Shown in pieces: positions 22,134-33,844 of a stretch of 34,841 nucleotides of DNA (position 1 is the first letter of the stretch; every line of letters begins with the position of its first letter). The translations under genes were made by a program, and so were the position numbers. The stretch covers positions 1 to 34,841 of the forward strand of contig JAGXHL010000089.1 in assembly GCA_024636215.1 (NCBI GenBank), given 5' to 3'. The notes below the pieces were generated by a model. That model had not been told where the DNA came from and did no database searches. It was given only the letters and a program-made list of their open reading frames with translations. Source of the stretch: Deltaproteobacteria bacterium. GTDB lineage: Bacteria; Desulfobacterota; Desulfuromonadia; Desulfuromonadales; BM103.

Positions 22134-22294
22134 CAACGGAATCAGTTGTGATAGATAAAACGCAATAAGCACGCCAGAAAAAAACGGCAGGTCATACTCA
22201 TGCAACATACTGATATTATTTTGTAAGTTGGAATTCAACTGACAGGTGGGAGAAAAATCTGTTACGAGTAGTCGTCATATGCGACAAAGCCGTC

Positions 22295-22399
22295 TTATGC
22301 GGCGGCCGTATCAAGGTACCAATAGCCGTTTTCCTCGGCATGCATGAGATGGCTATTGCCATCCCATGCATTGAAGGATTCGACCACCTGCCGTGTATG
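22295..22399 (-). pseudogene. Unidentified C-terminal gene fragment
   Basis: Between in-frame stops, the minus strand reads HTRQVVESFNAWDGNSHLMH followed by AEENGYWYLDTAAA. The aromatic-rich, low-repeat composition looks like real protein sequence, but there is no start codon or RBS and an in-frame TAG lies just upstream. An alternative frame upstream (KFLGLGVAYTA) hints at a frameshift. I do not recognise the family. Confidence 0.3.
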
Positions 22400-22563
22400 C
22401 TACGCCCAGACCCAGGAATTTGCCCTAAATAGTAGACTCGTTACTATTGACATGATCCAGGTAATCCGCTTAAGATCACGATTAGAAAATAACGTCGCAA
22501 AAACAAAAACTTAAATGTCAGGAACTTAGTCTGAAATAATCTAATTCATAGCCCGAAAAGTCT

Positions 22564-22648
22564 GCTAAAGGCAAATCCACCGAAAGTTGGAGGCGCAAAG
22601 TCACCGGTCTACAGGGATTTCTCCCCACGACAGCGGGACTGCCAGATT
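22564..22648 (+). ncRNA. GEMM-I (cyclic di-GMP-I type) riboswitch
   Basis: The leader matches the GEMM-I consensus block by block. GGCAAA (22570-22575) is followed by the hairpin TCCACC-GAAA-GTTGGA with its GAAA tetraloop, then the invariant GGCGCAAAG (22592-22600), TCACCGGTCT, a second hairpin (GGGA...TCTCCC) and finally CAGCGGGACTGCC, whose TGCC pairs with the opening GGCA. Compared from memory with the V. cholerae Vc2 aptamer, the order GGCAAAC / GACGCAAAGCC / CCGGCCU / UAGCGGGGUUACC is fully preserved. The ligand is c-di-GMP, or cGAMP for the GEMM-Ib variants. The base I align with Vc2 G20 is G, which would favour c-di-GMP, but my alignment is by eye. It controls the secreted protein gene at 22702. 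Confidence 0.85.
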
Positions 22649-22657
22649 TCTTTACTT

Positions 22658-22699
22658 TAGCAATACCTTGATTTTTTGGGTCAATCAAAGGTGTTGCTA
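22658..22699 (+). promoter_or_regulatory. RBS-masking hairpin (riboswitch expression platform)
   Basis: TAGCAATACCTTGATT (22658-22673) pairs with AATCAAAGGTGTTGCTA (22683-22699) over about 16 positions with one bulge and one G-T pair. The right arm contains the only candidate Shine-Dalgarno (AAAGG, 22687-22691), 10 bases before the ATG at 22702. The hairpin would therefore hide the ribosome site. It lies 10 bases after the riboswitch aptamer and is not followed by a T-run, so control of translation is more likely than termination. Confidence 0.65.
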
Positions 22700-22701
22700 T
22701 T

Positions 22702-23601
22702 ATGAATCCCCGTTCTGCTCCCGAATGCATCCTCCTGAAGGTTCTGCTTGCTCTCAGCTTTTTGATCGCCAGCGTCAGCCCGGCTTTTTGTTTGGATTCC
22801 GCCCCGCACTCCGCGAATGACCAAGGGTTTCCGAACGAGTACGGCCGTGTCGTTTATCAGAAAAATCAAGACGCAACAAACCAGATCTTCATTATCGGAC
22901 AGTCCCATCGCAGCGGAGTGAATGGAAAGAACGACCAGCATACGGTGCAAACCCAGATGGAAATCTATCGGATCGGCGAATGGCTTATACGCCAGAAAAA
23001 GGTGGAAATATTGCTGCCGGAGGGATTTTTCCAGAAAGGTATCGTTCAAAACGATGCGCAAGGTCGGCCATTCGCAAATTATACTTCGAACAGCCTTGAC
23101 AGTGAACGCTTAAGGAGCCTGCTACAGGATACCAGACGATTTGTCAGTGCCGACATTTTGTTATCGGCCCAATATCCCATGCGTTTGGGCCAGGTGGAAG
23201 ATGAAGAGCTGTACCAGACGGTGTCCCACCTGATGCGAAAACTCGGAAATCGAAACGAAGACTTGAACCGTGCGTTTTTTGAGGAATTGAGCGACTACCA
23301 GAGAAAACGCACGGCGATTATGCTCCAGAACATCCCCTTTGCGGTTGAAAGCGTATTCCAAAGAGGGGATGTCGAAAACAAACATGCGATCTTCACGATT
23401 GGGATGGCGCATATCGCGGATATCCTCGAGTTTCTCCATGCGAAAACCGGGAAAATCGCCGGGAATGATGACTTGCTTTCTTCGCCCGCCTTTGATTTGC
23501 TGGAAGAAGGATATGGGGTAACCGTGATCTTGCCAAAGTCGTTGGCCGAAGATGACAAAGTATTGCGTCTCACCCGCCTTGAACAGTTGACATTTCCCTG
23601 A
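22702..23601 (+). CDS. Secreted TraB/GumN/TIKI-like protein under riboswitch control
   Basis: This 299-residue protein has an N-terminal signal peptide (hydrophobic core LLKVLLALSFLIASVSPAF; cleavage near residue 30), so it is exported. The mature part shows the spaced motifs of the TraB/PrgY/GumN/TIKI (ChaN-EreA-like) superfamily: GQSH with His69 in IFIIGQSHRSG, Glu107 in EILLPEGFF, and GMAH with His237 in IFTIGMAHIADILEFL, ending with EEGYGVTVILP. In TIKI proteins the corresponding Gly-His and Glu residues form a metal-dependent peptidase site; other members have unknown activity. The match is by motif pattern, not strong overall similarity. Translation start: ATG after AAAGG that lies inside the hairpin at 22658-22699. 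A c-di-GMP-type riboswitch upstream ties it to a surface or biofilm programme. Confidence 0.75.
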   Translation: MNPRSAPECILLKVLLALSFLIASVSPAFCLDSAPHSANDQGFPNEYGRVVYQKNQDATNQIFIIGQSHRSGVNGKNDQHTVQTQMEIYRIGEWLIRQKKVEILLPEGFFQKGIVQNDAQGRPFANYTSNSLDSERLRSLLQDTRRFVSADILLSAQYPMRLGQVEDEELYQTVSHLMRKLGNRNEDLNRAFFEELSDYQRKRTAIMLQNIPFAVESVFQRGDVENKHAIFTIGMAHIADILEFLHAKTGKIAGNDDLLSSPAFDLLEEGYGVTVILPKSLAEDDKVLRLTRLEQLTFP

Positions 23602-23631
23602 CCCCGCACCCCTATGAGTGGTGCCACTTTC

Positions 23632-23642
23632 GGTCCGACCCC
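23632..23642. repeat. GGTCCGACCCC short repeat (copy 1)
   Basis: A short GGGTCSGACCC-like palindromic word. Similar words occur at 25091-25101 and, as GAGTCGGACCCC, at 26034-26045. All lie just outside gene ends. It may be a repeat remnant or chance. Confidence 0.3.
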
Positions 23643-23723
23643 GAAGCACCTCCCCTTTCAAACCTTGGCCCGCTCATACTGCACCGGCCACTCTTATTGA
23701 AAGTCAAACCAGTGTTGCCAAGC

Positions 23724-24230
23724 TTAATACTTTCGCGAGTCATATGCCCAGTGAAGAATGGCCTGTCTCTGTTTGCGACGACAATTCAAGTCTGCCTCGA
23801 AGCAGTTTCTTTTGATCTGGGTGATGTGCCTGCGCATCCCTTTCCATCTCTTGATCTGACGTTCATCATCTCTACAGCGTCGCCCCATGTAATATCGGCA
23901 ATACCACTGGAACCATCCACGTGGATCTTCCTCATAGATCCACCCTTTCTTTTGCCACACAGATAAGGGTTGTGACGCATTCACTCCAAAATAATTCAGA
24001 ACCGGATCATGCCGCTCGGAACATAGCTTTACATATTTGAACCATTCGGCGGGGAATTCATCCTTGCAATCTGTCATGTATTTACCACCGAACACACCCA
24101 ACTCAAGCATCTCTTCAGGTTTCAACTCGGGACGAAATTCTGGATGGTAATTCTGCCCGACCGGTTCGATGAGTTCATATTTGTAATTTGTCTGCATCAA
24201 ATCATTGACCTGAACGATGACATTGGGCAT
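23724..24230 (-). CDS. Conserved hypothetical protein (168 aa)
   Basis: This 168-residue soluble protein has a near-perfect RBS (AAAGGAGG, 5 bases before the ATG). It has strongly conserved-looking motifs: PEEMLELGVFGGKYMTDCKD, EFPAEWF, FGVNASQPLSVWQKKGWI then YEEDPRGWFQWYCRYYMGRR, DERQIKRW and a C-terminal KRNC...CRRKQRQAILHWAYD. I recall this arrangement as a widely distributed bacterial (and plant) family of unknown function. The many Trp, Tyr, Arg and Cys residues and the basic C-terminus suggest a small globular protein, perhaps nucleic-acid binding, but that is speculation. It is monocistronic and converges on the TraB/TIKI-like gene. Confidence 0.85.
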   Translation of the reverse strand: MPNVIVQVNDLMQTNYKYELIEPVGQNYHPEFRPELKPEEMLELGVFGGKYMTDCKDEFPAEWFKYVKLCSERHDPVLNYFGVNASQPLSVWQKKGWIYEEDPRGWFQWYCRYYMGRRCRDDERQIKRWKGMRRHITQIKRNCFEADLNCRRKQRQAILHWAYDSRKY

Positions 24231-31654: not shown

Positions 31655-32141
31655 AGTGACCTCCTGCTTGTTTGTGCAAACGGTCTTGATTGATACTGGC
31701 CTTCTATAAAAATAGTACAAAAACGACAATTGGCCACTCTTAAGAGTCAAATCAATTCAATCGTTACTCTAACGCCAGATAATGTCGGGAGCTTTGCGTT
31801 CGGACAGCAGCAACTCATTACGGATCGGCGGACACTCTTCCAGTGGCAGCTCGGCCGGCATCCACGGTTGCAGAATAGCTGATCTGGCGAAAAACAGACA
31901 TCTCATTTCAAGCAAACTGGTTTATTACGATAACTTCAGATATAACCTTCCGGGTCAATGCACTGGCAACCTTATTCACCAGCCGTCCGACGCGGGGGAT
32001 CAGGATATCAACCAGGCTGTTACCAGGAGCCTATTGACAAGCCTGCCACGCAGACGGACAATCCACCTTACTGTGACGGGTTTCTCCAGAGAACCAATGC
32101 TTTCGTTGCGCAATCAACATCCTGAAAAAGGTAAACACGCT
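31655..32141. other. Intergenic region between OYE and cmoA
   Basis: These 490 bases hold the OYE promoter region and upstream palindrome. A 45-codon minus-strand frame (31769-31906) reads MRCLFFARSAILQPWMPAEL, then PLEECPPIRNELLLSERKAP and DIIWR. It has protein-like composition but no RBS and no family I know, and could be debris of a lost gene. The plus-strand frame that leads into cmoA from 31782 is not supported. Confidence 0.4.
31736..31747. promoter_or_regulatory. Perfect palindrome ACTCTTAAGAGT upstream of the OYE gene
   Basis: This 12-base perfect palindrome is centred 87 bases upstream of the OYE start codon. Flanking TTGACT and AT-rich sequence suggest a promoter region. Such a dyad would suit a dimeric repressor (TetR/MarR/HxlR type), as known for other electrophile-induced reductases, but no regulator gene is nearby. 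The role is inferred. Confidence 0.4.
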
Positions 32142-32876
32142 GTGGAAAAGAGACAAGATGTTATTTATGCCGCGCCATTAAACGAAATCATCGATTTTCA
32201 TTTTGACGAGCGGGTGGCCGAGGTCTTTCCAGACATGATTCAACGCTCGGTGCCCGGCTACGCGACGCTGATTTCCATGATCGGCACCCTGACAGCACGA
32301 TATGCTCAAGCCAATAGTCATTGTTATGATTTGGGCTGTTCGTTAGGTGCAGTCAGTTTCGCCATGCGGCAACGCATTCATCAGCCCGATTGTGACATTA
32401 TTGCCGTGGATAATTCTCGGGCAATGATTGAACGTGGCCGGCAACTTCTCGACTCTGACGCTTCTTCAAGCGTTCCGGTAAACATGATATGTGCCGGCAT
32501 TCAGGATGTTGCGATTGAAAACGCTTCGATAGTCGTTCTGAATTTTACTTTGCAATTCATCCCTCCAGCAGAGCGTTTAGCACTGGTGACACGCATTTAC
32601 CAGGGTTTAAAACCGGGGGGCCTTTTGATATTGTCTGAAAAACTGGCCTTTGACAGGCAGGATAGACAACGATTTCATATGGAAGCACATCATGATTTCA
32701 AGCGCGCCAATGGCTATAGCGACCTGGAAATCAGTCAAAAACGTGCGGCACTGGAGCGCGTGCTGATCCCGGAAACCCTGAATTGTCATCAACAACGTCT
32801 GAAAGACGCTGGATTTAATTTTAGTGATATCTGGTTCCAATGCTTTAACTTTGTATCCCTGGTCGCTATAAAATGA
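32142..32876 (+). CDS. cmoA: Carboxy-S-adenosyl-L-methionine synthase CmoA
   Basis: The core is almost diagnostic: [50 protein letters not shown] (SAM site), [40 protein letters not shown] and [17 protein letters not shown]. CmoA converts SAM and prephenate to carboxy-SAM. I propose the GTG at 32142 as start (AAAAAGG about 10 bases upstream): this gives 244 residues, against 247 in E. coli. An ATG at 32097 would add 15 residues, and the frame is open back to 31782, but those extensions are not CmoA-like. It overlaps cmoB by 4 bases (ATGA). The substrate carboxy-SAM is handed to CmoB for uridine-34 carboxymethylation. Confidence 0.96.
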
Positions 32877-33844
32877 GGATGTATCAATCGCTATATCAAC
32901 AGCTGGATGTCATGGGTCTCGACCTCTGGGCACAGCAATTAAAGCAAATTCTTCCTGCAAAACTGGCATTGGAGAATCATGGCAAAATGGCTGACTGGCA
33001 AAGAGCCCTGAACGCTTTGCCTCAATTAGTGCCCTCACATATTGACTTTAAAGCAAAGGTTCAAATCGGCTGTCCCGAGGATCTTGGCGATATCAGAGTT
33101 GAGTTATTTACAGAACACCTTAAAGCCTTTCATCCGTGGCGGAAAGGGCCTTACAACCTGTTCGGGGTTGACATCGATACAGAGTGGCGCTCGGACTGGA
33201 AATGGGATCGGCTCTTGTCACACATCCAACCCCTGACGGGCAGAAAGGTTCTTGATATCGGTTGCGGCAATGGCTATCACGGCTGGCGCATGCTCGGCGA
33301 AGGTGCGGAGTTCGTACTGGGTATCGATCCAACCCTGATTTCAGTAATGCAATTTCTGGTAATACAACGCTATGCTACTGATAAGCGCCATTACGTATTG
33401 CCTTTGGGCATTGAAGACGTCCCTGCTGATTTGGCCTGTTTTGACAGTGTCTTTTCTATGGGGGTACTGTATCATCGGCGTTCGCCGCTGGATCATCTTC
33501 TTGAACTGCGCGGTTGCTTGCGCGCCGGTGGAGAGCTGATCCTGGAGACGATGATCGTGGAGGGAGACAAAAGTACGGTGCTGATGCCGGAAGAGCGTTA
33601 TGCAAAGATGCGCAATATCTGGTTCCTCCCCTCGGTTCCTGCCATGATGTTATGGTTGCGTCGTTGTGGATTTATAAATATCGTTTGCGTCAACACCAAT
33701 CACACCAGTCTGGAAGAACAGCGCCGGACTGACTGGATGAGCTATGAGTCGCTAGCAGACTATCTTGACCCAGAAGATCTGAACAAAACAATTGAAGGCT
33801 ACCCTGCCCCACTAAGAGCGATCTTTGTCGCAACCCGGCCATGA
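32873..33844 (+). CDS. cmoB: tRNA U34 carboxymethyltransferase CmoB
   Basis: This 323-residue protein is exactly the E. coli CmoB length. It has an N-terminal domain (W-rich [20 protein letters not shown]), a Rossmann methyltransferase domain with [20 protein letters not shown] and [39 protein letters not shown], and the C-terminal [20 protein letters not shown] and [15 protein letters not shown]. CmoB uses carboxy-SAM from CmoA to make 5-oxyacetyl uridine at tRNA position 34, widening wobble decoding. It is translationally coupled to cmoA, and no other tRNA-modification gene is close. No obvious terminator follows. I have no doubt about the family. Confidence 0.96.

Follow-up and report, generated by a model that had tools for sequence, protein, structure and literature searches.

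A c-di-GMP-I riboswitch that probably turns off translation of an exported protein with a TIKI-like predicted fold

In a window of 34,841 nucleotides (contig JAGXHL010000089.1, positions 1 to 34,841, of a deltaproteobacterial genome), we found that the gene for a 299-amino-acid exported protein is preceded by an aptamer of the c-di-GMP-I (GEMM-I) class, the riboswitches of cyclic di-guanosine monophosphate (c-di-GMP). Its assignment to this known class is well supported by the sequence, and computed folds of the leader indicate that the riboswitch probably serves as a translational OFF switch, the protein itself having a TIKI-like predicted fold. What is new here is the target family, its c-di-GMP control, which is probably ancestral, and what the folds predict to be a clear two-state switch at the Shine-Dalgarno (SD) sequence. 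Coordinates of the leader and the gene refer to the forward (+) strand of the window.

When the window was scanned with the Rfam models (cmscan), its sole match at gathering score was RF01051 at 22560-22646, covering model positions 1-87 of 87 with 77.8 bits (gathering score 35) and an E-value of 7.5e-14. The preliminary description of this DNA, made from its letters, had read the leader as GEMM-I, and this full-length match bears it out. Transcription may start near 22483, downstream of a promoter-like TTGACA-18-TAAGAT at 22447-22476 (10 of 12 matches in a consensus scan), although three such sites in the scanned region against 1.6 expected make this weak evidence. We rejected transcription termination as the mode of control, as 22230-23750 holds no terminator-like site; control would therefore be expected at translation.

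The SD sequence, AAAGGTG at 22687-22693, lies in the 3′ arm of a computed hairpin at 22658-22699, in which 22658-22673 pair with 22683-22699 in 16 pairs around a bulged A22687, ending two nucleotides before the ATG at 22702. The region from aptamer to ATG folds at −17.4 kcal/mol (z −4.45), a stability reached by none of 200 dinucleotide shuffles. This hairpin had already been noticed, but it is only one of two mutually exclusive folds, and the earlier account of the switch was incomplete in having missed the helix that makes the hairpin switchable. That helix, which we term the antisequestor, joins 22551-22570 to 22655-22662 and 22670-22681 in 20 pairs of −24.3 kcal/mol, equalled by none of 1000 spacer shuffles; in the two closest relatives it reaches −24.0 kcal/mol (L015, 0 of 1000) and −19.4 kcal/mol (L016, 4 of 1000, or 11 of 1000 in a repeat). 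Neither the aptamer helix P1 nor the SD mask can form beside it, since it takes up P1's 5′ strand, the base G22570 that contacts the ligand, and both the loop and the 5′ arm of the SD hairpin. The stretch 22655-22681 is thus the switching strand, which either pairs with 22551-22570 and leaves the SD free or lends its 22658-22673 to the SD arm. The regulatory element starts further upstream than first given, at 22551 with the antisequestor's 5′ strand: with a shorter 5′ strand (model positions 1-16) the pairing falls to −10.8 kcal/mol (p 0.09), and the full helix needs 10 more bases upstream. A 3′-strand antisequestor was dropped for the window, with −6.1 kcal/mol and 848 of 1000 shuffles equally stable.

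Over 22550-22704, the SD-open state was computed at −44.2 kcal/mol and the state with P1, P2, P3 and the SD hairpin at −43.0 kcal/mol, which puts the two about 1 kcal/mol apart. The free fold of 22550-22720 is accordingly the SD hairpin and that of 22550-22724 the antisequestor, because the two states are so close. When folding was computed from the presumed transcription start, the probability was 0.48 for the antisequestor, 0.52 for the SD hairpin and 0.02 for P1; in the growing RNA, the open arrangement first forms once 22663 is reached and has the lowest energy at all lengths tried up to 22711. In the enforced fold the SD hairpin, which starts at 22658, forms alongside the aptamer and P1, which reach to 22649; by computation the SD is thus hidden when the aptamer is in place and exposed in the competing arrangement. 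Enforcing the aptamer and P1 (standard pairs only; enforced folds of −43.0 kcal/mol in the window, −45.5 and −37.5) lifted the pairing of the SD to 0.93 in the window (0.75 when free) and to 0.88 in L016 (0.40 when free). The direction of control suggested by these models is OFF with ligand. While c-di-GMP is absent, 22551-22570 would pair with 22655-22681, breaking P1 and tying up the ligand-contact G, with the SD free and the protein made; c-di-GMP would stabilise the aptamer and P1, so that 22658-22673, once released, would bind the SD arm and halt translation. The protein is thus probably made only at low signal, and it would arrive in the envelope when c-di-GMP is low. The nearest known counterpart is Vc2 of Vibrio cholerae, described as a translational OFF switch (PMC9262584), which the element resembles in its full RF01051 aptamer, its G at the G20 position and its predicted translational OFF control through P1.

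The gene at 22702-23601 is an open reading frame with full-length relatives, and its product belongs to an unnamed family. Residues 1-30 (22702-22791) resemble a signal peptide, with a presumed cleavage site and a hydrophobic stretch shared by 108 of 112 aligned relatives; a strict lipobox was found in 0 of 112, and the sequences point to a periplasmic location. The spacing GxxH / Glu / GxxH that the preliminary description had picked out proved to be a fixture of the family: the window protein reads IIGQSH69R, LLPE107G and TIGMAH237, and none of the 112 aligned relatives departs from H69, E107 or H237. The same holds for R70 in the motif GQSHR (residues 66-70, 22897-22911) and G234 in GMAH (residues 234-237, 23401-23412), while E107 of LLPEG is encoded at 23020-23022. 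The three residues stand at, or just past, predicted strand ends.

Two predicted models both align best with ChaN, HopBA1 and EreC, these top three agreeing between them; ChaN, HopBA1, Bcr135, PMT and RRSP all fall in the top 13 rows of the first fold list and four of them recur in the second. In line with what had been anticipated, the best alignments are with TIKI-superfamily structures (ChaN, HopBA1) and Ere kin (EreC), those to ChaN, HopBA1, EreC, Bcr135, PMT and RRSP being moderate but consistent, although Foldseek alone is not significant. ChaN, HopBA1, Bcr135, PMT and RRSP are placed in, or compared within, the TIKI superfamily in the account of PMC6254334, which gives a conserved His-Glu pair as a TIKI feature; here H69 and E107 provide such a pair in 112 of 112 aligned sequences. 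The protein may therefore share its fold with the TIKI superfamily and the related Ere proteins, and it may be a hydrolase.

Sequence comparisons draw no such line. The Pfam affiliation expected for a TraB-like protein failed to appear: the window protein matches neither the TraB (PF01963) nor the ChaN (PF04187) model, nor any other Pfam model, and neither of the two occurs among the 25 families listed when 112 members were compared with Pfam. The target family is therefore one without a Pfam model, and it appears to be undescribed. Profile comparison with TraB and ChaN gave no link, in a comparison weakened by taking the longest central frame per locus, so that some rows are over-long or wrong; this negative carries little weight, because ChaN against TraB, built likewise, also gives no profile signal (0.2 to 0.4%). 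No match was found by sequence search of the PDB, whose profile search returned two chance-level rows, in the plasmid search or, for the window protein, in PADLOC; Foldseek gave nothing at E ≤ 0.001 in the PDB or among viral models. The fold lists name no TraB or Tiki structure, which excludes nothing.

The nearest known families differ from this one in distinct ways. From ChaN (C. jejuni structure 2g5g) it is set apart by the missing Pfam match and an identity of 9 to 13%, and separate ChaN-family genes occur in 80 of 117 genomes sampled in the class. The pattern GxxH / Glu / GxxH is a mark of TraB/Tiki proteins, and its presence in all 112 members is the likeness to TraB/PrgY/GumN and metazoan Tiki; from TraB/PrgY/GumN the family differs in its lack of a Pfam match and a profile comparison of 1 to 2%, and of 78 genomes sampled in the class 46 have separate PF01963 genes. 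In the 2His/2Glu set of Ere-type esterases (EreC, Bcr135) the first Glu precedes the first His by two residues; here the corresponding position, two before H69, is Gln in 83, His in 14, Ile in 8, Asn in 3, Asp in 2 and Thr in 1 of the 111 shown among 112 relatives, and Glu in 0 of 111. That the protein lies outside the TIKI superfamily, its fold match reflecting a common alpha/beta arrangement, is unlikely when five TIKI-associated proteins are in the top 13 rows and four in the second list, with the top three shared by the models, and when the conserved His and Glu residues sit at or just after strand ends; the negative profile result, which might seem to favour it, weighs little for the reason given.

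Relatives were collected by protein search (238 at E ≤ 0.001 among 1534 candidates, 120 of the 238 being listed) and by profile search (926 at E ≤ 0.01 among 7994 candidates scored). Those listed include close relatives of 65-89% identity, and for one (P0026) a database gives Geoalkalibacter ferrihydriticus as the source. The gene is carried by 28 of 277 genomes of the class, the same 28 by single sequence and by profile, in one copy per genome, which the profile search reports as two adjoining stretches in G097. In a sample of the phylum 4 of 395 genomes carry it, two of them beyond the class list and from an order in which 2 of 17 genomes do. A same-strand upstream aptamer precedes 16 of the 28 class genes, 15 of them matching RF01051 and one RF03167 (c-di-GMP-I-GGC, 59.1 bits against 59); the relatives' aptamers score 74 to 88 bits save for this last. 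Another gene has a sub-threshold aptamer only (29.1 bits), the other 11 have none, and neither of the two genes outside the class has one upstream (0 of 2). Homologues are therefore not consistently without the aptamer, the outcome that would have undone the original proposal. Across the roughly 96 Mb of the 28 genomes, with no more than 15 candidates scored in each, there are at least 227 aptamers; against this background 15 of 28 lies far above chance (1.4e-32 if the genes were independent, which those of related genomes are not). On a tree of 31 proteins, 17 of them labelled with an aptamer, the label changes 5 times against 10.6 when shuffled (0 of 500 shuffles as low), and carriers stand on both sides of the midpoint root, which was used for drawing only. 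An ancestral aptamer with later losses fits these patterns best, though it is not proven. In one relative's genome (G067, 3.3 Mb), the sole c-di-GMP-I match reported, under stricter filters and with 15 candidates scored, is the aptamer before the family gene.

We also compared the expression platforms of the relatives, taking SD masking as pairing of positions −14 to −5 with a threshold of 0.8. Of the 11 aptamer leaders that were scored, 7 reach this threshold, compared with 14 of 241 neighbouring genes (Fisher 2.7e-6) and none of the 12 relatives that lack an aptamer at gathering score (0.0013). The neighbouring genes were taken from the first ATG per open frame, so that some starts are wrong, and 6 of the 112 with an SD-like 4-mer reach 0.8; starts in the 12 comparison relatives were chosen by hand, and one of them (L039, 0.78) has a sub-threshold aptamer. 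With the window clade collapsed, masking remains in 5 of 9 leaders (1.5e-4). On the window branch the spacer complements the 5′ strand of the aptamer, equally stable pairing being found in 0 (window), 0 (L015), 11 (L016) and 9 (L017) of 1000 shuffles. The spacers of the other 13 leaders tend to complement the 3′ strand, a modest signal (combined p 0.0025), and the reverse strand tests are flat (0.81 and 0.999); these p values are flattering, as the leaders are related and not independent. The expression platform thus looks rewired between branches, with a 5′-strand antisequestor in the window's branch and a 3′-strand form elsewhere, the latter resting on that modest signal. Five leaders (L029, L031, L033, L038 and L042) have an in-frame ATG at the 3′ end of the aptamer, the likely start in the last four and one of two in L029; in these leaders the aptamer may by itself hide the ribosome site, with no platform apart from it.

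Several of these results weigh against an OFF switch of this kind. The errors of the computed state energies exceed the gap between the states, and the whole leader (22550-22720) is of ordinary stability (z −0.83, with 47 of 200 shuffles equally stable). In L015 the free fold masks the SD already, at 0.91, rising to 0.93 when the aptamer is enforced, so that little switching is expected there unless the outcome is set while the RNA is being transcribed. SD pairing stays under 0.8 in four of the scored leaders (L020 0.41, L023 0.62, L024 0.77 and L036 0.79), 6 of 17 could not be scored for want of a clear start or with the start codon at the aptamer, and 11 of 28 class genes have no aptamer.

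Some of this would suit an SD hairpin that acts alone, as constitutive damping or as a thermosensor, beside an aptamer that is a relic: the hairpin is very stable by itself, 11 of 28 class relatives lost or never had the aptamer, and one retains a sub-threshold form. We consider this quite improbable, as the window aptamer scores 77.8 bits and those of the relatives 74 to 88 (the RF03167 one, at 59.1, excepted), masking of the SD accompanies the aptamer (7 of 11 leaders, 0 of 12 without it), and the antisequestor, far beyond its shuffles, links aptamer and SD hairpin. Nor is there much chance that ligand binding instead switches translation ON: GEMM riboswitches of both directions exist (PMC9262584), but here the aptamer with P1 and the SD hairpin coexist without overlap, and the fold with an open SD requires P1 to be broken.

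The likely ligand of this predicted translational OFF switch is c-di-GMP. G22570 lies at model position 11 in the RF01051 alignment, the equivalent of G20 in Vc2, as is G11 of Cd1 (PMC9262584), and this selectivity position is G in 17 of 17 aptamers (the window and 16 relatives), approximately so for L035, which was aligned with RF03167. The G20A mutation is described as making a class-I aptamer accept cyclic GMP-AMP (cGAMP) (PMC7288161, PMC6274999). We set cGAMP aside on this base, all 17 aptamers having G where GEMM-Ib has A; of the two ligands first suggested, c-di-GMP stands and cGAMP has become unlikely. The GEMM-Ib (cGAMP) riboswitches of Geobacter share the aptamer architecture and come from related bacteria, but differ in having A as the selectivity base. 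That the aptamer senses 3′,3′-cGAMP as they do is highly unlikely with G in 17 of 17 when the G20A mutant is the form reported to take cGAMP, even though the most likely relatives are Desulfuromonadales, 12 of 17 GEMM-I riboswitches of G. sulfurreducens are described as binding cGAMP (PMC8835794) and G20 is described as contributing to selectivity without strictly deciding it (PMC9262584).

Searches of an open-licence library yielded no paper joining a c-di-GMP riboswitch to TraB or Desulfuromonadales, a c-di-GMP-I riboswitch to TIKI, or a riboswitch to GumN; the element differs from known c-di-GMP-I riboswitches in a target gene family not met there with any riboswitch. It would tie an exported protein family of Desulfuromonadales-type environmental bacteria to c-di-GMP by a direct, probably ancestral RNA switch. 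The switch would indicate when the protein is wanted (at low c-di-GMP) and the fold suggests its class of chemistry, both of them new for proteins that were merely hypothetical.

The window gene seems to stand alone, with neither of two recurrent neighbours nearby. Of 31 neighbourhoods, 13 include a small secreted protein of the peptidoglycan-binding kind (PF01471, PG_binding_1; for example L101:8554-9000, +) and 6 a PRC-barrel (PF05239) protein (for example L076:6571-7188, −), one locus having both; the domains were checked on three proteins each. Other aptamers offer a guide by analogy: the genomes of L001 to L003 carry nine further ones, eight with a downstream frame, and these frames encode flagellar rod, fn3/Ig- and PKD-domain, multihaem-type cytochrome, T2SSE ATPase and response regulator proteins, two being without a Pfam match. 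Such genes are familiar GEMM company, which makes an envelope or surface role for the family protein a fair guess. A more specific proposal, which we regard as speculative and unlikely, is that c-di-GMP directly silences translation of a dedicated envelope hydrolase from a new family of the TIKI superfamily, whose targets would be surface proteins or proteins linked to peptidoglycan in the dispersing phase, when c-di-GMP is low, the recurrent peptidoglycan-binding and PRC-barrel neighbours being its partners or substrates. If true, this would be a riboswitch-and-TIKI route to a task that other bacteria give to receptor-controlled periplasmic proteases.

Three further observations were made in passing. 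The PG_binding_1 and PRC-barrel proteins, of unrelated families, have a common C-terminal motif like EFFGLSPEFG or EFYGVSPYWE (F/Y-G-x-S/A-P-like). Genome G102 has another c-di-GMP-I aptamer (63.7 bits, L024:1138-1225, −) just downstream of the family gene, ahead of a Cache-HAMP-PAS sensor gene (L083:3-1280, −). Elsewhere in the window, a cmoA-cmoB pair occupies 31782-32876 and 32873-33844; the CmoA frame is 364 amino acids long and its model covers residues 125-364, so that either the protein is considerably extended at its N-terminus or the start of the frame is misplaced.
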